Shown here: positions 4,649 to 35,655 of the stretch, piece after piece
How the letters are laid out: every line of letters starts with the position of its first letter
Position numbering within the stretch: the stretch's first letter is position 1
From: Desulforapulum autotrophicum
GTDB lineage: Bacteria; Desulfobacterota; Desulfobacteria; Desulfobacterales; Desulfolunaceae
Assembly (NCBI GenBank): GCA_020723285.1
Contig: DYJE01000002.1
Coordinates: forward strand, 248,001-312,000
Length of the DNA: 64,000 nt
Direction: 5' to 3'
Notes under the pieces: generated by a model
Databases searched by the model: none
Told to the model about the DNA's origin: nothing
What the model saw: only the letters and a program-made list of their open reading frames with translations
Translations under genes and position numbers: made by a program

Positions 4649-6742
4649 ATGAAGATCACATCAAAAAACATGAGCCATATACAGTCGTTGATAAAAAAAA
4701 ACATCGCCAATGCGCGCTATCTTGCGGATATGGGCAAACCGTATGTGGCCCTCCGTTACCTTGACAAGCTTCTGAAAGCGAAGTGCCTGGGCCAGATCAC
4801 GCCTCGCCAGATCGATATCGCCCTCACCTTTGACTGCAACCTGTCCTGCGATCACTGTTTCACCGCCTCCATGCACAACCCCAATGAGAAGGAAATGGAC
4901 CGTGAAACGCTGAAACGTGTGGCCCGTGAATGCCGCCGCCTGGGCATCACCGTCATTCATTTCACCGGCGGGGAAATTCTTTTGAGAAAGGATCTTGAAG
5001 ACATCATCCGCCTCTTCGATCCCCAAAAACATGTGATCTACATTCAGAGTAACGGCACACTGGCCACGCGGGACCGGTTGAGATCCCTCAAAAAAGCGGG
5101 GCTTGATTTTTTCGGGGTCAGCCTAGAACATCCTGATAAATCAAGACAGGACGCCTTCCGGCATCATTCGGGATATTACGACAAAACCCTTAAATCCCTG
5201 GAACTGGCCCGCAGTGAAGGTCTCATGACCTCGGTGAATCTCACCCTGGACAGGCACCTGATCCGATCAGACACCCTCCCCGCCTGGATCGAGAGCCTTG
5301 GACGCATGGGGCATATCGTTTACGGTAACCTTCCGGTTCCCGTGGGCCGGTTCAAAAACAGAAAAGATTTGCTCTGGTTCGATAACGAAAGGGTTATTCT
5401 CGAAAACCTGACCCGGCGTTTTCCCTTTTTCCGTACCGAATTCGATTCCAATTTCGGTCCCAAAGGGTGTCCGGCCATGAAGGAGAAAATTTATCTCTGC
5501 GCTTACGGAGACGTTCTGGCCTGCCCTTACATCCATGTGTCGTTTGGAAACGTCAAAACGGACAATCTTTCGGATATTTACAAACGCTGTCTTTCTTTCG
5601 ATGTTTTCAAAACGTATCATGACCACTGCCTCGCCGCTGAAAACAAGGGGTTTATCCATCGTATCATTGATAAAACCCTTGATTTTTCTAGGCAGCCGGT
5701 TTTTTATAAATCACTTGAACACGAACTTTCGACGCATCCGATCACTCGAAATCCGGAACAGAAACCCATGCCGTCAGACAATCAAACACCCGATCCCCCT
5801 GTCCGCTTCGAAGAAGTGAATTGCCCGTCATGCGGTTCATCAGTCCGTCATCCGGTGATTTCGGCCCCGGACTTTGAAACCCGTTATGATTATATGTTCC
5901 ATGTGGTGCGCTGCGACGCATGCGATCTGTGTTACACATCGCCACGGCCTTCGACAAATGATCTTTTCACCTTGTTTTACCCCGACAATTACGTGTGTTA
6001 CACAAAATCCGGTGTCGCCGATTCCATTCGTGAAACATATCTCGGCAAATCCCGACTAAAAGCGCTGACACCTGTTTTCAAGCGTCTTCGTCCCGACGGT
6101 TCGGCCGGACGTTTCCTCGATGTGGGCTGCGCGTACGGTTATTTCCTTTCATACCTGAAGACCCATACAAACTGGGATGTCCTGGGATGCGAACCGAACA
6201 GGAACATGGCGGAAACCGCCTGCCTCAAAGGACTTGACGTCAAAGCGGAAACCCTGGTCAACGCCGGATATGAAGAGGACAGTTTCGATCTTGTCTACAT
6301 GTCCCATGTTTTGGAACATGTTCCGGATCTTAAGGAAACCGTGGCCGAAGTGTTCCGCATACTGAAACCCGGAGGAATCTTCATCACGGAAAACCCGGAT
6401 CTCGACGCCCCGATCCGCCACCGTTTCGGTGCCGCCTGGTGGGGGTATCACCTGCCCCGCCACCTGACCCATTTCTCCTTTGAAACCCTGTCCCGTGTTC
6501 TTGGAAACGCCGGTTTTCAGGTTGAGCGCATCACACCCTGCTTCAGGCCGGGACCCATTGCCTGGTCTGTTCAGAATTCCTTGAAAAGCAAAGGGTACCC
6601 CGATTTCCTCTGCTCATTGTTCGGTGTTCAGAATCCTGTGTTTGTCGCCATGTGCGGTATTCCCGCCTTATCATTCCTCAAAAAAGGCCATACGGACATG
6701 ATGGAAACCCTGGCTGTAAAACCCCGTGGGGTCAATGCATGA
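4649..6742 (+). CDS. fusion of radical SAM/SPASM domain with zinc-ribbon class I methyltransferase
   Basis: 697 residues in one uninterrupted frame with two halves. The N-terminal half has the radical SAM motif CNLSCDHC (Cys63, 67, 70), FTGGE (105-109) and later cysteines (274, 284, 292) resembling a SPASM region. A linker at about 350-385 leads to a zinc-ribbon (CPSC 392-395, CDACDLC 422-428), then a class I S-adenosylmethionine methyltransferase with motif I DVGCAYGYF (491-499), SHVLEHVPD (552-560) and LKPGG (572-576). Zinc-ribbon methyltransferases of this sort usually act on sugars or small molecules. Met374 at the linker could be an old separate start, but no ribosome site is seen there. 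The stop overlaps the next gene (ATGA 6739-6742). Confidence 0.85.
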   Translation: MKITSKNMSHIQSLIKKNIANARYLADMGKPYVALRYLDKLLKAKCLGQITPRQIDIALTFDCNLSCDHCFTASMHNPNEKEMDRETLKRVARECRRLGITVIHFTGGEILLRKDLEDIIRLFDPQKHVIYIQSNGTLATRDRLRSLKKAGLDFFGVSLEHPDKSRQDAFRHHSGYYDKTLKSLELARSEGLMTSVNLTLDRHLIRSDTLPAWIESLGRMGHIVYGNLPVPVGRFKNRKDLLWFDNERVILENLTRRFPFFRTEFDSNFGPKGCPAMKEKIYLCAYGDVLACPYIHVSFGNVKTDNLSDIYKRCLSFDVFKTYHDHCLAAENKGFIHRIIDKTLDFSRQPVFYKSLEHELSTHPITRNPEQKPMPSDNQTPDPPVRFEEVNCPSCGSSVRHPVISAPDFETRYDYMFHVVRCDACDLCYTSPRPSTNDLFTLFYPDNYVCYTKSGVADSIRETYLGKSRLKALTPVFKRLRPDGSAGRFLDVGCAYGYFLSYLKTHTNWDVLGCEPNRNMAETACLKGLDVKAETLVNAGYEEDSFDLVYMSHVLEHVPDLKETVAEVFRILKPGGIFITENPDLDAPIRHRFGAAWWGYHLPRHLTHFSFETLSRVLGNAGFQVERITPCFRPGPIAWSVQNSLKSKGYPDFLCSLFGVQNPVFVAMCGIPALSFLKKGHTDMMETLAVKPRGVNA

Positions 6743-8142
6743 CAGACCGCTTACGCATCCTTTTTGTCAAAACCTATGCCTACGCTCCGAACCAGGCCTT
6801 TGACGTACCCCTTGGAATCCTCTATCTGTCGGGCTATCTGAAAAAACATCTGGAAAACCGGGTGGCCATCTCCCTTCTCGATCTGAGAATCATCGACAAC
6901 AAAAAAGAGGCCCTGAAAGAACGGATACACCATTTCAACCCACAGATCATCGGCATCAGCACCCTGGCCTTTGAGCACGCCTTTCTTTCAGACAACGCCC
7001 AGTTCATCCGCCAGCACGCTCCGGACGCCCTTGTGGTCATCGGAGGTCCTTACGCCACGTCCAACGTAACAAGCGTCCTTATGGAAAACCCCATCGACGC
7101 GGCGGTTCTTGGAGAGGGCGAAGCAAGTTTCCTGAATCTGGTGAAGGCCTGTGCGGAAGGCCGTGATTTCCGTTCTGTCCGGGGGATCGCTTATAAAGAA
7201 AACGAGACCGTGGTGATCAACGAAAAGGAAGATTACATCGATAATCTCGACACCCTCCCCATTCCTGATTACGAGCTCATCGACTTCAACGACTACTGGG
7301 GCAACCGTCTCCAGTTCAACGGCATCCTCGCGGAAAAGAAACACGCCTCGGTGATCAGCTCAAGGGCCTGCCCTTACCGTTGCGTGTACTGCCACAGCAT
7401 GTTCGGAAAAAAACTGCGAAAACGGAGCCCGGAACATTTCGTGTCTGAAATCCGGCATCTGTACAACCGATACAAAATCCGGGAATTTCATATCATCGAC
7501 GACGTGTTCAACCTGGACCGACCCAGGATGCAGCGTATCCTCAACCTGATCATCGAAAGCGGAATGACAATCCGAATCGCCTTTCCCAACGGATTAAGGG
7601 GCGATGTGCTTGAAACGGAGGACATTCTCCTCCTCAAAAAAGCCGGGGCCTACATGCTGACACTGGCCATCGAAACAGGGTCTGTCCGGATGCAGACCCT
7701 GATCCGTAAAAATCTCGACATTGAAAAAGTCCTTGAAAACATTGCATACGCCGAAAACATCGGCCTGATTACCCGTGGTTTTTTCATGCTGGGTTTTCCC
7801 GGTGAAACTGTGGATGAAATGAAAAAAACCATCCGGACAGCCTCTCGTTCCAGACTCAGCATGGCCAGTTTTTTTATCGTGGTTCCTTTCGAAAACACCG
7901 AACTTTACGACATGGCCCGTCAACACCTTGAAGTGATGGACAAAGATCTGATTTCAAGCTATCAGGCCAGCACGTCGTTTTATGAAAAAGCCACGGGCTA
8001 CAAAGTGGGCAAACTTCAGAAACTCGCCTATCTTCGGTTTTACACCCCGCTCCGTCTGGTCCGGCTGTTCATGAAAATTCCGAGGAAATCCTACCAGATC
8101 ACCAAATGGTTTTCCTTTGCCTTCGATCTTTTGAGATTGTAA
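6739..8142 (+). CDS. B12-binding-domain radical SAM protein
   Basis: 467 residues from ATG 6739, which overlaps the previous stop. An upstream in-frame ATG at 6652 lies inside the preceding gene and is rejected. Residues 1-140 form a cobalamin-binding Rossmann-like domain (VPLGILYLSGYL, IIGISTLAFEH, VVIGGPYAT, VLGEGE). The base-off DxHxxG histidine motif is not seen, as in many class B radical SAM enzymes. The radical SAM motif CPYRCVYC follows (Cys211, 215, 218), with a GFFMLGFPGET stretch further on. Family members are methylases, ring-contraction enzymes or other radical catalysts that use cobalamin. The substrate is unknown. It is translationally coupled to the fusion protein, so the two likely act on one pathway. 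Confidence 0.87.
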   Translation: MTDRLRILFVKTYAYAPNQAFDVPLGILYLSGYLKKHLENRVAISLLDLRIIDNKKEALKERIHHFNPQIIGISTLAFEHAFLSDNAQFIRQHAPDALVVIGGPYATSNVTSVLMENPIDAAVLGEGEASFLNLVKACAEGRDFRSVRGIAYKENETVVINEKEDYIDNLDTLPIPDYELIDFNDYWGNRLQFNGILAEKKHASVISSRACPYRCVYCHSMFGKKLRKRSPEHFVSEIRHLYNRYKIREFHIIDDVFNLDRPRMQRILNLIIESGMTIRIAFPNGLRGDVLETEDILLLKKAGAYMLTLAIETGSVRMQTLIRKNLDIEKVLENIAYAENIGLITRGFFMLGFPGETVDEMKKTIRTASRSRLSMASFFIVVPFENTELYDMARQHLEVMDKDLISSYQASTSFYEKATGYKVGKLQKLAYLRFYTPLRLVRLFMKIPRKSYQITKWFSFAFDLLRL

Positions 8143-27984: not shown

Positions 27985-27996
27985 CAGGATGTGGCC

Positions 27997-29730
27997 GTGT
28001 TTCTCCCCTGCACAAAAAAAGAAATGGATGCACTTGGCTGGGACAGGGCCGATATCATTCTTGTTTCCGGTGACGGATACATCGACAGTCCATATATCGG
28101 TGTGGCCGTTATCGGCAATGTCCTCGCCCGTGAAGGTTACAGGGTCGCCGTCATTGCCCAGCCCGATGTGAATTCCCCAGCGGATATCACCCGACTTGGC
28201 GAACCTCTTCTGTTCTGGGGTGTTTCTGCCGGTTCCGTGGATTCCATGGTGGCCAACAGGACGGCATCGGGCAAAAAACGAAAGCACGATGACTACACGC
28301 CCGGAGGTCTGAACAACCGAAGACCGGACCGGGCCCTGATCAAGTACAGCAATCTGATCCGTCAGTACTTCAAGAACACCGTCCCCATCGTCCTTGGAGG
28401 TGTAGAAGCGAGCCTTCGAAGGATCAGCCATTACGATGCTTGGTCCAACAGCATCAGAAAATCCGTTCTTTTCGACGCCAAAGGAGATTATCTGATCTAC
28501 GGCATGGGAGAAAAAGCCGTCACAGAGCTGGCCTTTACGCTGAAAAACAACCGGAACCCGTCGGAAATCCGTGGACTCTGCTACATCAGTCGGGAACCAC
28601 GGGAAGATTACACTGAACTGCCCTGCCACGATGACGTTGTTTCGAACAACCAGTCCTTCATCACCATGTTCAGAACATTCTACACCAACAACGACCCCCT
28701 GACAGCCCAGGGACTTTACCAGAAGCAGGACGCCCGGTATCTTGTGGCCAATCCCCCGGCTTTAAGACTCACCACGCAAGAACTGGATTCCATCCATGAC
28801 CTTCCATACGAGCGTGAACTTCATCCCTTCGATCAGGCCAAAGGTTCTGTCACAGCCCTTGACACCATCCAGTTCTCCATTCCCATCCACCGGGGATGTT
28901 ACGGAGAATGCAGATTCTGCGCCATTGCCGTTCACCAGGGCCGCACCGTCTCATGGCGAAGTGAAGATTCCATTTTAAAAGAAGCGAAAATCATGACACG
29001 GCATCCCCGATTTAAAGGCATCATCACTGATGCCGGTGGGCCCACAGCCAACATGTATGGCTTTGAATGTGAAAAAAAATTGAAAAAAGGGGTCTGCTCA
29101 TCCAAAAGCTGTCTTTACCCAGCGGTCTGCCCATCGCTCAATCCCGACCACCTGCCCCTTATCCGTCTTTTGAAAAAACTCCGCAAAATTCCAGGCATTC
29201 GTCACGTGTTCTCCGCTTCGGGGATCCGCTACGATCTGCTGTTTGCAGATAGAAAAAAAGGGCTTGAATACCTTGGTGAAATCGTTAACCATCATGTGTC
29301 CGGCCAGCTTAAAATCGCTCCGGAACATACGGAACAGGAAATTCTTGATATCATGGGGAAACCCGGTCCCGAATCCCTTCTCCGCTTCAAAAAAACCTTT
29401 GAGGAACTGAACAGAAAATCGAATAAAAAACAGTTTCTCACCTACTACCTTATCGCGGCCCATCCGGGATGCCATCTTTCTCACATGCTCCGGCTTAAAA
29501 CCTTTGCCCATGATAAACTGAAATCCCGGCCCGAGCAGATCCAGATTTTCACCCCGACCCCGTCAACATGGTCCACCCTGATGTATGCCACACACATCAA
29601 CCCCTTCAACGGCAAATCCATATTCGTTGAAAAAGACCCGCATCAGAAAGAAAAGCAAAAGACTGTCGTCATCGGTGATAAAAACACCTCTCCAAAAAAA
29701 CATCACAAAAAAGACTTTTCCGGAAAGTAG
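27997..29730 (+). CDS. ygiQ: YgiQ-family radical SAM protein
   Basis: 577 residues from GTG 27997, seven bases after AGGA. GTG 27991, two codons earlier, is also possible but too close to that site. The N-terminus FLPCTKKEMDALGWD matches the start of the YgiQ core. The radical SAM motif is CYGECRFC, followed by VSWRS. A CSSKSC/CPSL region and a C-terminal part with KIAPEH and PTPSTWSTLMY are also typical. The C-terminal Lys/His-rich tail is not conserved. YgiQ proteins are widespread [4Fe-4S] proteins whose reaction is not established. The gene probably shares a transcript with argJ. Confidence 0.92.
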   Translation: MFLPCTKKEMDALGWDRADIILVSGDGYIDSPYIGVAVIGNVLAREGYRVAVIAQPDVNSPADITRLGEPLLFWGVSAGSVDSMVANRTASGKKRKHDDYTPGGLNNRRPDRALIKYSNLIRQYFKNTVPIVLGGVEASLRRISHYDAWSNSIRKSVLFDAKGDYLIYGMGEKAVTELAFTLKNNRNPSEIRGLCYISREPREDYTELPCHDDVVSNNQSFITMFRTFYTNNDPLTAQGLYQKQDARYLVANPPALRLTTQELDSIHDLPYERELHPFDQAKGSVTALDTIQFSIPIHRGCYGECRFCAIAVHQGRTVSWRSEDSILKEAKIMTRHPRFKGIITDAGGPTANMYGFECEKKLKKGVCSSKSCLYPAVCPSLNPDHLPLIRLLKKLRKIPGIRHVFSASGIRYDLLFADRKKGLEYLGEIVNHHVSGQLKIAPEHTEQEILDIMGKPGPESLLRFKKTFEELNRKSNKKQFLTYYLIAAHPGCHLSHMLRLKTFAHDKLKSRPEQIQIFTPTPSTWSTLMYATHINPFNGKSIFVEKDPHQKEKQKTVVIGDKNTSPKKHHKKDFSGK

Positions 29731-31233: not shown

Positions 31234-32547
31234 TTACACCGCCACCTTCTCCACCCCAATATCCTCCTTAAAAACCTGCATCCCTTTTTTCATGGCACAA
31301 AAATCACCACACATCGTACAGGTTTTCTCCTCTTCCGGCATCCGGCTTGCCCGGATACTGCGAGCAATTTCAGGAAACATAAGATATTTCTCAAGGTCAT
31401 CCCAGCGCATGTCACGCCGCGCCATGGCCGCCAGTTTTTCATTTTCCCTCCGGTCAGGATACTTGGCCACATCGCCAATTCGTACAGCAAGGCGCGTGGT
31501 CCTCACTCCTTCACGTACATCCGCCTCATTGGGCAGTGCCAGGTGTTCAGAAGGCGTGATGTAACACACCAGATCAGCACCGTATCTGGCCGAATTGGCC
31601 GCCCCGATGGCAGAAACCACATGGTCATACCCCGCCCCCGAATCCAGAGGAAGCGGCCCCAGTACATAATAAGGTGCGTTTCCGCTCATCCGTTTTTCAA
31701 GCATGATATTGCCTTCGATTTCATCCAAAGGCACATGTCCCGGTCCTTCCACCATCATCTGGCATCCCATGTTCCTGCCCAATTCAGCCAATTCACAATT
31801 TATGATCATCTCCGCCATCTGAGCCCTGTCATGGCTGTCGTGAATGGCCCCTGCACGGATTCCGTTCCCCAGGGACAGCACGGAATCGTATTTTTTCATC
31901 AATGCGCAAACCCGGTCAAACTGCTCGTACAGGGGATTCTCTTTTTTGTGATAATCCATCCAGGCCACCATAAACGTGCCACCCTTGGAAACAAGACCGC
32001 CATACCTGTAACCCTGTTTTCTCAACCGCTCAATGGTGTAAAGATTGATCCCGCAATGGATGGCCATGAAACTCAGGCCATCCGCAAGCTGACGCTCGAT
32101 AAGTTCAAACAGGTATTCGGGATCCAGCATCGAAGGATTTTTGTATTTCTTCGCCGCCTCACTGAACGCCTGATACAGCGGAACATTTCCAACCGGCAGG
32201 CCCGATGCGGCAATCACCGCCCGGCGAATGGCATCCAGATCCCCACCTGCAGAAAGCTCCATAAGTGTATCCGCGCCCTCTTCTTCCGCTGCTATGGCCT
32301 TACGAACCTCCGCATCCACATCACAGATATCCGAAGAAGTTCCGATAGATGCATTGACCTTGGTTCGAAGCCCCGTTCCAATCCCCACCACTTTCTGAAG
32401 TTTGCGATTGGGATTGTTGGGAATCACGATTTCTCCAAGAGCCACCTTGTTCCTGACATATTCCGCCAAAACCCCTTCATCCAGGGCAACCCTCTCCATC
32501 TGTGAACTGACAACACCCTCTCTGGCAAGCTCGATCTGTGTTTTCAT
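31234..32547 (-). CDS. bzaF: 5-hydroxybenzimidazole synthase BzaF-like (ThiC paralogue)
   Basis: 437 residues from ATG 32547, with GGAG seven bases upstream. A TTG at 32580 is less likely. The protein belongs to the ThiC/BzaF radical SAM family (IGTSSDI, GPGHVPLDEI, YITPSEHL). The C-terminal cluster motif is CTMCGDFC, that is CX2CX3C, one residue shorter than the usual ThiC CX2CX4C. ThiC makes the thiamin pyrimidine, while BzaF turns the same substrate, aminoimidazole ribotide, into 5-hydroxybenzimidazole for anaerobic cobamides. I favour BzaF because a cobalamin riboswitch precedes the gene, cobT follows it, and no thiamin element or gene is nearby. A true ThiC cannot be excluded. Confidence 0.85.
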   Translation of the reverse strand: MKTQIELAREGVVSSQMERVALDEGVLAEYVRNKVALGEIVIPNNPNRKLQKVVGIGTGLRTKVNASIGTSSDICDVDAEVRKAIAAEEEGADTLMELSAGGDLDAIRRAVIAASGLPVGNVPLYQAFSEAAKKYKNPSMLDPEYLFELIERQLADGLSFMAIHCGINLYTIERLRKQGYRYGGLVSKGGTFMVAWMDYHKKENPLYEQFDRVCALMKKYDSVLSLGNGIRAGAIHDSHDRAQMAEMIINCELAELGRNMGCQMMVEGPGHVPLDEIEGNIMLEKRMSGNAPYYVLGPLPLDSGAGYDHVVSAIGAANSARYGADLVCYITPSEHLALPNEADVREGVRTTRLAVRIGDVAKYPDRRENEKLAAMARRDMRWDDLEKYLMFPEIARSIRASRMPEEEKTCTMCGDFCAMKKGMQVFKEDIGVEKVAV

Positions 32548-32594
32548 AAAGCCGCTCCATGCATCAAAAACGTTATTCAAGGGCCTTCCAAAAC

Positions 32595-32636
32595 AAAAAA
32601 GGGTTCAGGAAGGTCAACAAACCTCCCAGAACCCTT
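32595..32636 (-). terminator. riboswitch expression-platform terminator
   Basis: On the minus strand AAAGGGTTC-T-GGGAGGT pairs with ACCTTCC-T-GAACCCTTT (one mismatch, 6-base loop) and runs into a T tract (32595-32600). It lies between the riboswitch aptamer and the bzaF-like start, so transcription would stop here when cobalamin is bound. Confidence 0.88.
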
Positions 32637-32659
32637 TGCCATCAAGCTCCAGCATTCCT

Positions 32660-32805
32660 GTTCTGCACGTCTTCTGACTTCCGGTCATCCATGCCCCGCA
32701 CCTTCCCAATGTCATCCATCAGTGGCCGCCTCCTAAGAGGCTCGCAGGTCACAACCCGGTTACAGCGGCGGGTCCGTCACGGAATTTCACCGTGTTCCGT
32801 TTACA
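32660..32805 (-). promoter_or_regulatory. cobalamin riboswitch
   Basis: Minus-strand sequence has the conserved blocks in order: GGTGAAATTCCGTGACGG, CCCGCCGCTGTAACC, GCCACTGATGG, TTGGGAAGGTGCGGG and finally AAGTCAGAAGACGTGC (B12-box region). These match the adenosylcobalamin-type aptamer. It is followed by a strong terminator and the bzaF-like gene. The ends are approximate (a few bases either way). Confidence 0.93.
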
Positions 32806-32834
32806 AAACAGTCATTCTTTATAGTTAATACACC

Positions 32835-32861
32835 TTTATATAATACACATAATGCCGTCAA
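32835..32861 (-). promoter_or_regulatory. candidate promoter of the riboswitch transcript
   Basis: On the minus strand TTGACG (32856-32861), 15-base spacer and TATAAA (32835-32840), about 30 bases upstream of the aptamer. An imperfect palindrome with core CGTCATGACG flanked by ACAG and CTGT (32906-32926) lies farther upstream and could be an operator. Confidence 0.4.
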
Positions 32862-33505: not shown

Positions 33506-34234
33506 ATGAAAAAAATTTTGTTGTTAGTTGTTATGTCTGTTTTTTTAATTTGCCCGACTGTATTCGCCCTTCCCGTTGGTACAGCACTTGAAGGTGTATT
33601 CAACTTTATCGCTTCTGACGGTACAAATGATGTAGACGTGTATAATGATCATCTTAGTGATTCATCCGATTCATATTGGAACATTACGGCATCTGGTGGT
33701 TCAGTAGCATCTTTTATCATCGAAATTGCAGGTTATGCTGACTCCAACACTTTTGGTATTTACGACTTGGCCAATAGCAATAATAGACTTGAAGTATTTT
33801 CAGGCTCTGCAACGACTGGAAAAAAAGTATTTATTACAGTTGATGGTACAAATACATTTGAAGTTAATGGAAACAGTGCTGTCTTTTCAAGCTCCAGCTT
33901 TGGTTATTACATCAATGTTGCAGCCACTGGCAACACATACTTCAGCGACACTTCATTGAACGTAGACAATTACGATCACATGCTTGCATACGCAGGTATT
34001 GGTGAACTTGTTGACCTTGACGGTGTTGCAGGAACAAAATTTACCAAGGGTGCATGGACAGCAAACGAATACATTCTCGCCTTCGAAGATCTCTTGGGCG
34101 GTGGCGATCAGGATTTCACTGACCTTGTTGTCATGGTTGAATCCGTACAGCCCGTACCCGAGCCCGCAACCATGTTCCTCCTTGGAACTGGTATAATCGG
34201 CCTTGCAGGTGCACGGAAAAAGATGAGAAAATAG
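33506..34234 (+). CDS. PEP-CTERM surface protein with DUF4114-like domain
   Basis: 242 residues. A signal peptide (1-21, ending FA) leads to a Ser/Thr/Gly/Asn-rich beta-strand-like body, and the block with YILAFEDLLGGGDQDFTDLVV resembles the DUF4114 domain. The C-terminus is a textbook PEP-CTERM sorting signal: VPEPATMFLLGTG, a hydrophobic helix, then RKKMRK. Exosortase is expected to cut at this signal and pass the protein to the outside, often with glycosylation. GAGG precedes the ATG, a sigma-54 promoter-like site lies 113 bases upstream, and a strong terminator follows, so it is a single-gene unit. Binding role unknown. Confidence 0.92.
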   Translation: MKKILLLVVMSVFLICPTVFALPVGTALEGVFNFIASDGTNDVDVYNDHLSDSSDSYWNITASGGSVASFIIEIAGYADSNTFGIYDLANSNNRLEVFSGSATTGKKVFITVDGTNTFEVNGNSAVFSSSSFGYYINVAATGNTYFSDTSLNVDNYDHMLAYAGIGELVDLDGVAGTKFTKGAWTANEYILAFEDLLGGGDQDFTDLVVMVESVQPVPEPATMFLLGTGIIGLAGARKKMRK

Positions 34235-35100: not shown

Positions 35101-35655
35101 ATGAAAAGCCTTGTTTTCGGGATATGCTTGGCTTTATTTTCTTGTAATCAAGCTTTGGCCTCACTGATAAATTACGAATTCATATTGACTTTGGATTCAA
35201 TTCCCAGAACTTCCCCATGTTTCGAACTGGAGTTAGGTGATTCAATTATTGGAAACTATTCATTTGATCCTGACCTATTTCCCGATGATGCTTCTGGAGG
35301 GGATGCAGCCACGAATTATGGCTTTACAGGTCATGTTCAAATTGAAAATTTCGATAACTATTTCAGTTCATTTAGCATTCAACCAAATAAACAAATTGCG
35401 TCATTGTGCTTTTATGATGGCTTGGACTATATGCTTTTTGTCAATCTCATTGACTATACATTTATATTTTCTGGTGAAGATTTTATAACGCCTATATTCC
35501 ATTATAACGGTCATTTTGAATATTTAACAGACTCAAACCATAGCGAACCCATGCCTTCAACACCAGAGCCGGCAACGTTTATACTTTTGGGACTTGGCCT
35601 ATCAGGGTTCGCGGGCTATAAAAAGAAATCAAAAAAGCCTTTTCAAAATATATGA
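35101..35655 (+). CDS. PEP-CTERM protein with a roughly 115-residue repeat-type domain
   Basis: 184 residues. Signal peptide (1-20, ending ALA), a domain from NYEFILTLDS to FHYNGHFEYL, and a C-terminal PEP-CTERM signal (TPEPATFILLGLG, hydrophobic helix, KKKSKK). The domain pattern is Y-F-L strand, GDSIIGNYSFDP, YGFTG, FSI, LDYML, FSGEDF. Two further copies form the next gene. GGAGG lies six bases before the ATG. The domain family is unknown to me; its strand-rich layout suggests a small beta-sandwich. It is expected to be exported and processed by exosortase. Confidence 0.88.
   Translation: MKSLVFGICLALFSCNQALASLINYEFILTLDSIPRTSPCFELELGDSIIGNYSFDPDLFPDDASGGDAATNYGFTGHVQIENFDNYFSSFSIQPNKQIASLCFYDGLDYMLFVNLIDYTFIFSGEDFITPIFHYNGHFEYLTDSNHSEPMPSTPEPATFILLGLGLSGFAGYKKKSKKPFQNI

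Follow-up and report, generated by a model that had tools for sequence, protein, structure and literature searches.

When a gene of the ThiC family stands between a cobalamin riboswitch and cobT, does its product make the pyrimidine of thiamin, as its ordinary name would imply, or does it make the lower ligand of a cobamide? The question is raised by a minus-strand locus in a 64,000-nucleotide stretch of Desulforapulum autotrophicum DNA (contig DYJE01000002.1, positions 248,001 to 312,000; hereafter the window), which an earlier note had read as an anaerobic route to a 5-hydroxybenzimidazole cobamide. As detailed below, it is very probable that the riboswitch, terminator, bzaF-type gene, and cobT act as a unit by which the organism produces the lower ligand for its own cobamide and joins it on, and that the ThiC-family protein encoded here (the window protein) is a BzaF-type 5-hydroxybenzimidazole synthase.

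A cobalamin riboswitch and terminator precede a ThiC-family gene and cobT

Read along the minus strand, the unit begins with a cobalamin riboswitch aptamer (32823–32647), which in a covariance-model search matched RF00174 over its complete length (model positions 1–189) with 90.9 bits (E 3.2e-21), against a gathering score of 31.5 bits. The riboswitch leader proposed in the earlier note is thus confirmed by the search, and so is the terminator proposed behind it: at 32637–32590 (minus strand) a strong hairpin with one mismatch is followed by TTTTTTGTTTT, and the 66-nt stretch that holds it folds at −27.7 kcal/mol (z −3.85), a value equalled by none of 200 shuffles. The leader therefore combines a score above gathering with an expression platform in the form of an intrinsic terminator. 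This terminator was not among the three sites returned by a simple terminator scan (4.1 expected), perhaps because of the mismatch in its hairpin, and a sigma-70 promoter scan found four sites against 3.5 expected, none of them above chance. Of 37 leaders, the window's included, 36 have a terminator-like hairpin in the interval from aptamer to gene, versus 15 of 111 doublet-shuffled leaders. Scoring 150 of 372 candidates across the genome as a whole gave at least four cobalamin riboswitches.

The listed open reading frame behind the terminator opens with a TTG at 32580, 10 bases past the T-run, and would encode 448 residues. An ATG at 32547 has GGAG upstream and corresponds to the residue at which the homologous proteins of relatives start, and on these grounds we take it as the likely start of the bzaF-type gene (31234–32547, minus strand), which then encodes 437 residues; all residue numbers of the window protein refer to this form. 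Downstream on the same strand lies cobT (31039–29981), the gene for the lower-ligand phosphoribosyltransferase (TIGR03160, 433.3 bits against an NCBIfam cut-off of 319.3), as had been claimed. Since the gene past cobT (27991–29730) is on the opposite strand, the unit probably ends there. The outer end of the span first given for the finding, 31234–32861, lies 38 bases beyond the aptamer. Elsewhere in the window, two proteins (33506–34234 and 35101–35655) have C-termini that by eye resemble PEP-CTERM sorting signals, and the pair adjoins a stretch (36758–63501) whose translations read as a polysaccharide gene cluster.

The genome holds a separate thiC in a thiamin operon

The window protein matches the ThiC family PF01964 with 561.6 bits and passes the NCBIfam ThiC models (501 bits against a cut-off of 460, and 551 against 410), so that the gene would ordinarily be named thiC, just as the earlier note expected. 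These scores could be taken to mean that the locus encodes a second, B12-regulated ThiC making the thiamin pyrimidine, a reading that we consider very improbable in light of the evidence in this and the following sections. The annotated BzaF of T. lovleyi SZ (Trichlorobacter, or Geobacter, lovleyi) is likewise above the NCBIfam ThiC cut-offs, and the names given by such models therefore do not by themselves separate ThiC from BzaF.

Against a second ThiC stands, first of all, the presence of a genuine one. In the 5.44-Mb genome (97% complete) the ThiC family is represented by two genes, which share one contig (C25). The second is 41% identical to the window protein and is the last gene of a TPP-riboswitch thiamin operon, whose order reads thiG-thiH-thiF-thiE-thiC from the translations and whose ThiG matches its Pfam model. 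This copy is the true thiC and the window gene is a paralogue rather than a thiamin gene: the window gene lies outside any thiamin operon and has a cobalamin riboswitch for a leader, the TPP riboswitch belonging to the other copy. The possibility that the window gene is the only ThiC copy of its genome, which would have spoken against the BzaF reading, is thereby removed.

The same duality extends to relatives. Both forms occur in all eight genomes examined in the family, the window's own included, one being 80–100% and the other 41–44% identical to the window protein. Across the class, 36 of 147 sampled genomes have a copy of at least 63% identity (two of these are fragments), and all other matches listed are at or below 47%, leaving a clear gap; across the phylum, a copy of 60% identity or more is present in at least 61 of 297 sampled genomes (one a fragment), and the remaining matches among those listed are at or below 50%. 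In one genome (G278; locus L068, 4033–6817) a BzaF-type and a ThiC-type gene are adjacent and divergent, 215 bases apart.

A point in favour of a thiamin role comes from genomes with a single copy. Eight genomes of the window's order (G025, G036, G046, G048, G052, G127, G137, and G151; 85–99% complete) have the BzaF type as their only ThiC-family gene, and two of these, from one genus (G137, 98% complete, and G127, 87%), carry a TPP-riboswitch thiGHFE operon that lacks thiC (L202, 6234–9676, and L203, respectively), their sole ThiC-family gene standing under a cobalamin riboswitch. In another genus of the same family (G056; L204, 5559–10372), thiC occupies that position. On the other side, as a weaker point, six of the eight lack a strong ThiG match (nothing above about 30 bits, where a true ThiG exceeds 330). 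Such a match is also lacking in five (G012, G351, G373, G413, and G432) of the nine genomes in the same test that do hold a second ThiC-family gene, so its absence does not show that thiamin synthesis was lost, and we dropped it as a sign of such loss. These eight genomes also mark an annotation trap: because standard models name BzaF-type proteins ThiC, makers of cobamides can be missed and thiamin prototrophy over-predicted.

The window protein groups with BzaF, apart from ThiC and BzaB

To place the window protein we drew a tree of 81 rows (48 BzaF-like and 33 ThiC) from 169 distinct proteins, each labelled beforehand by whether the window protein or the genome's own ThiC gave the better tblastn score. 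The BzaF-like and ThiC proteins split with support of 100/100, and the split is present in all 200 bootstrap trees examined. The window protein stands apart from all 33 ThiC rows, in a group that contains T. lovleyi BzaF and Geobacteraceae loci; a firm grouping with ThiC, which the earlier note named as grounds for abandoning its reading, is thus contradicted. Within this tree, the bzaF genes of two Nitrospirota bins (L119, 3387–3871, and L143, 80–506) are nested among Geobacteraceae sequences and have two consecutive cobalamin riboswitches upstream, possibly reflecting transfer or a binning error.

The 81-row tree gave long-branch warnings (E. coli, Thermus, and others), and a second tree of 64 rows was made with six long ThiC rows dropped and two BzaA/BzaB-type pairs added. 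Here 30 BzaF-like rows form one group (100/100) and 30 ThiC rows another (99/96), with a warning persisting for a long-branch meeting of the presumed BzaA rows with the BzaF-like group. The named anchor in both trees is T. lovleyi BzaF, as annotated by NCBI; the BzaF enzymes known from biochemical work, those of G. sulfurreducens and Desulfuromonas acetoxidans, lie outside the trees, neither being among the best 80 of 580 relatives.

The trees also bear on whether the window gene could instead belong to the two-enzyme route, as BzaB or BzaA. The superfamily is shared, and the window protein scores 494.7 bits against the BzaB model TIGR04386; the cut-off of that model is 700, and the proteins that exceed it, found in only two of 395 genomes (L190 and L191), do so at about 750 bits each. 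In both cases the genes are tandem BzaA/BzaB-type pairs from the window's own phylum (L190, 1513–4084, and L191, 96–2748, in G508 and G437), a rare arrangement there, and these two pairs are our references, the partner of BzaB being presumed to be BzaA. In the 64-row tree BzaB and its partners fall outside both the BzaF-like and ThiC groups, and at the window locus there is no tandem partner: a single bzaF-type gene is present, the other ThiC-family gene sitting in the thiamin operon. With score, arrangement, tree, and (see below) residues all contradicting it, a BzaB or BzaA identity was rejected and has next to no probability. The available text of PMC10553843 describes certain Seep-SRB1a genomes as having kept 'BzaAB'; given how rare BzaB above the cut-off is in the phylum, some of these may be BzaF.

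Two residues at the substrate site distinguish BzaF-like proteins from ThiC

Twenty positions of Arabidopsis ThiC (AtThiC) with a contact, metal, cluster, or catalytic role were taken from the available portions of PMC4389238 and PMC11117688 (two of the cluster cysteines being placed by the CX2CX4C motif), carried over through a printed alignment to Caulobacter ThiC (CcThiC, whose numbers are nine lower), and mapped onto the 169 distinct proteins, 136 of them BzaF-like and 33 ThiC. Seventeen of the 20 positions are identical across all 169 proteins, among them the cluster cysteines, the second-metal histidines, the SAM ribose Glu, the phosphate ligands of aminoimidazole ribotide (AIR), Glu422, Tyr449, and the Cys that aligns with CcThiC C474. 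The window protein thus has the CX2CX4C motif as well as its place in the ThiC superfamily.

What differs is the contact with AIR. AtThiC Asn228, which contacts the AIR 3'-OH, is Ser67 in the window protein, and AtThiC Asp383, which contacts AIR N3, is Asn228 (window numbering); the first position is Ser in all 136 BzaF-like proteins and Asn in all 33 ThiC proteins, and the second is Asn in all 136 and Asp in all 33. The window protein thus lacks both of these ThiC residues, and the resulting Ser/Asn pair separates BzaF-like proteins from ThiC without exception. At the third variable position, AtThiC Arg343, BzaF-like proteins have Lys (132/136) or Arg (4/136) and ThiC proteins always Arg (33/33). 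Two further cysteines, Cys251 and Cys262 of the window protein, occur in every one of the 136 BzaF-like proteins and in none of the 33 ThiC proteins. With 17 sites kept and the swaps falling at AIR contacts, the machinery for the cofactors appears to be preserved, and it is the substrate side that seems altered.

Mutants of AtThiC, as described in the available text of PMC11117688, bear on the thiamin reading in both directions: D383N is partly active, as a ThiC-like function of the window protein would allow, but N228D, like D383A, yields no HMP-P, and that Asn is absent from every BzaF-like protein. The two BzaA/BzaB-type pairs give a further comparison, in that the Asn228 position is Leu in BzaB and Ser in the partner, and Asp383 is kept in both pairs; a BzaB with Leu and Asp at these two positions is unlike the window protein. 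The swapped residues are presumably what causes the changed product. We further entertain as a possibility, and a rather unlikely one, that loss of ThiC Asn228 is a shared switch from thiamin pyrimidine to benzimidazole, with Asp383 to Asn an extra change that lets BzaF act alone. If it were true, exchanging the two residues should shift the product between ThiC and BzaF. Of the leads from the analysis, the two-residue switch is the one of most use, as it makes the steering of the radical towards the B1 pyrimidine or the B12 base testable. The portions available of the literature that we searched by the BzaF name, which excludes the primary BzaF papers, contain no statement of the Ser/Asn signature, and it may already be known to others.

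Cobamide context of BzaF-like loci

A cobalamin riboswitch lies upstream of all 35 BzaF-like loci scanned within the order (the window not counted; genomes G034, G055, G008, G023, G110, and G086 contributed no scanned bzaF locus) and of one outside it (L050), versus none of the four ThiC loci scanned alongside the own-order set; three further ThiC loci (L003, L085, and L204) have a TPP riboswitch instead. Outside the order, a riboswitch before bzaF or its operon is not constant, occurring at 6/14, 5/14, and 0/5 loci (the last being L065–L069) in three locus sets.

At 51 of 140 BzaF-like loci, cobT lies on the same strand no more than 2 kb away (47/136 when four genes that were fetched twice are counted once), versus none of 34 ThiC loci, 15 of which have flanks of about 1.4 kb or more on both sides. 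It was not found within that distance and strand at the other 89 BzaF-like loci; at 28 of these, cobT stands 2.6–3.4 kb upstream of bzaF, and many of the remainder are short-flanked. Among own-order loci, the fetched stretch contains cobT in 24 of 35. The window gene, with its cobalamin riboswitch and cobT, stands in a cobamide context, and together with the family tree, the separate thiC, and the active site, this position makes BzaF the most likely identity of the encoded protein, as the earlier note had suggested.

A predicted 5-hydroxybenzimidazole cobamide

The genome has genes for anaerobic corrin synthesis. It encodes CobB/CbiA, CbiC, CbiL, CbiD, CbiE-CbiT, CbiF, CbiG, CbiH, and a CbiK-like protein (CbiC, CbiG, and the CbiK-like protein being below NCBIfam cut-offs), together with CobS and a single CobT, the one PF02277 match genome-wide. 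Genome-wide searches gave no BluB above the cut-off of 150 (best 49.8 bits) and no BzaD above the cut-off of 450 (18 weaker matches, best 124.3 bits), bearing out for BzaD-type genes the absence of methylation genes noted earlier, and both lower-ligand routes were dropped. One radical SAM protein in the window (6652–8142) matches the BzaD model weakly, with 109.9 bits against 450, and by that test is not BzaD. Lacking a BzaD match above cut-off, the genome is unlikely to make dimethylbenzimidazole by the known anaerobic route. BzaE was handled jointly with BzaD on account of their similarity (PMC6461909, available text), and it too is likely absent.

We propose that when adenosylcobamide is plentiful it would bind the leader RNA and cause transcription to end at the terminator, the riboswitch probably being an OFF switch, and that when adenosylcobamide is scarce the unit would be transcribed through bzaF and cobT. 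The radical SAM enzyme would then convert AIR to 5-hydroxybenzimidazole rather than to the thiamin pyrimidine, and CobT would activate this base. The predicted product follows G. sulfurreducens, whose BzaF gives 5-hydroxybenzimidazole and whose cobamide carries it (PMC7726332, available text).

We are less sure that 5-hydroxybenzimidazole, rather than 5-methoxybenzimidazole, is the final base. BzaF might make 5-hydroxybenzimidazole only for it to become a further product, such as 5-methoxybenzimidazole through an O-methyltransferase encoded elsewhere in the genome; PF00891 O-methyltransferase genes do lie near bzaF or cobT in T. lovleyi and at L050, L157, L049, L048, and L090, and a review lists Geobacter lovleyi as a provider of cobalamin to partners (PMC11321594, available text). 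However, the 4.3 kb around the window unit (L001) contain nothing that matches the T. lovleyi methyltransferase, and BzaD is without a match above cut-off genome-wide, and we regard such a further product as unlikely, though a good deal less so than a thiamin role for the gene. Among the PF00891 genes, those at L170 (10319–11353), L050 (1764–2750), L157 (5524–6513), and L049 (2936–3925) are BzaC-like candidates. Some sulfate reducers have been reported to contain 5-methylbenzimidazolyl cobamide. The available portions of PMC4230183 and PMC6389850 do not confirm that cobamide in sulfate reducers.

Comparison with known systems

Having settled on BzaF as the best reading of the window protein, we compare its locus with the systems closest to it. 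ThiC, the HMP-P synthase, shares with the window protein its family, the CX2CX4C motif, the second-metal His pair, the AIR phosphate site, and the Cys matching CcThiC C474, but the window protein has Asn228 and Asp383 replaced, and its gene has a cobalamin rather than a TPP riboswitch and cobT rather than thi neighbours. The two BzaA/BzaB pairs belong to the same superfamily, likewise lack the ThiC Asn228, and share Ala at window position 162; unlike the window gene, they are two tandem genes that keep Asp383, and the presumed BzaA has Lys for Glu422.

The nearest named relative is the BzaF of T. lovleyi SZ (WP_012471694.1, on plasmid pGLOV01), which is 68% identical to the window protein, lies in the same clade, and has the same Ser/Asn signature. 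Its gene also adjoins cobT, but there cobT is upstream and bzaF is followed by an O-methyltransferase gene, and the two cobalamin riboswitches of the fetched stretch are downstream of bzaF. The BzaF of G. sulfurreducens (GSU3005), from a different order and set beside the window protein by description only, is likewise a single ThiC-like enzyme for 5-hydroxybenzimidazole (PMC7726332, available text). BzaF and its occurrence in Geobacteraceae are already published (PMC7726332 and PMC13119186, available text), and the window locus is a further example of this known enzyme type.
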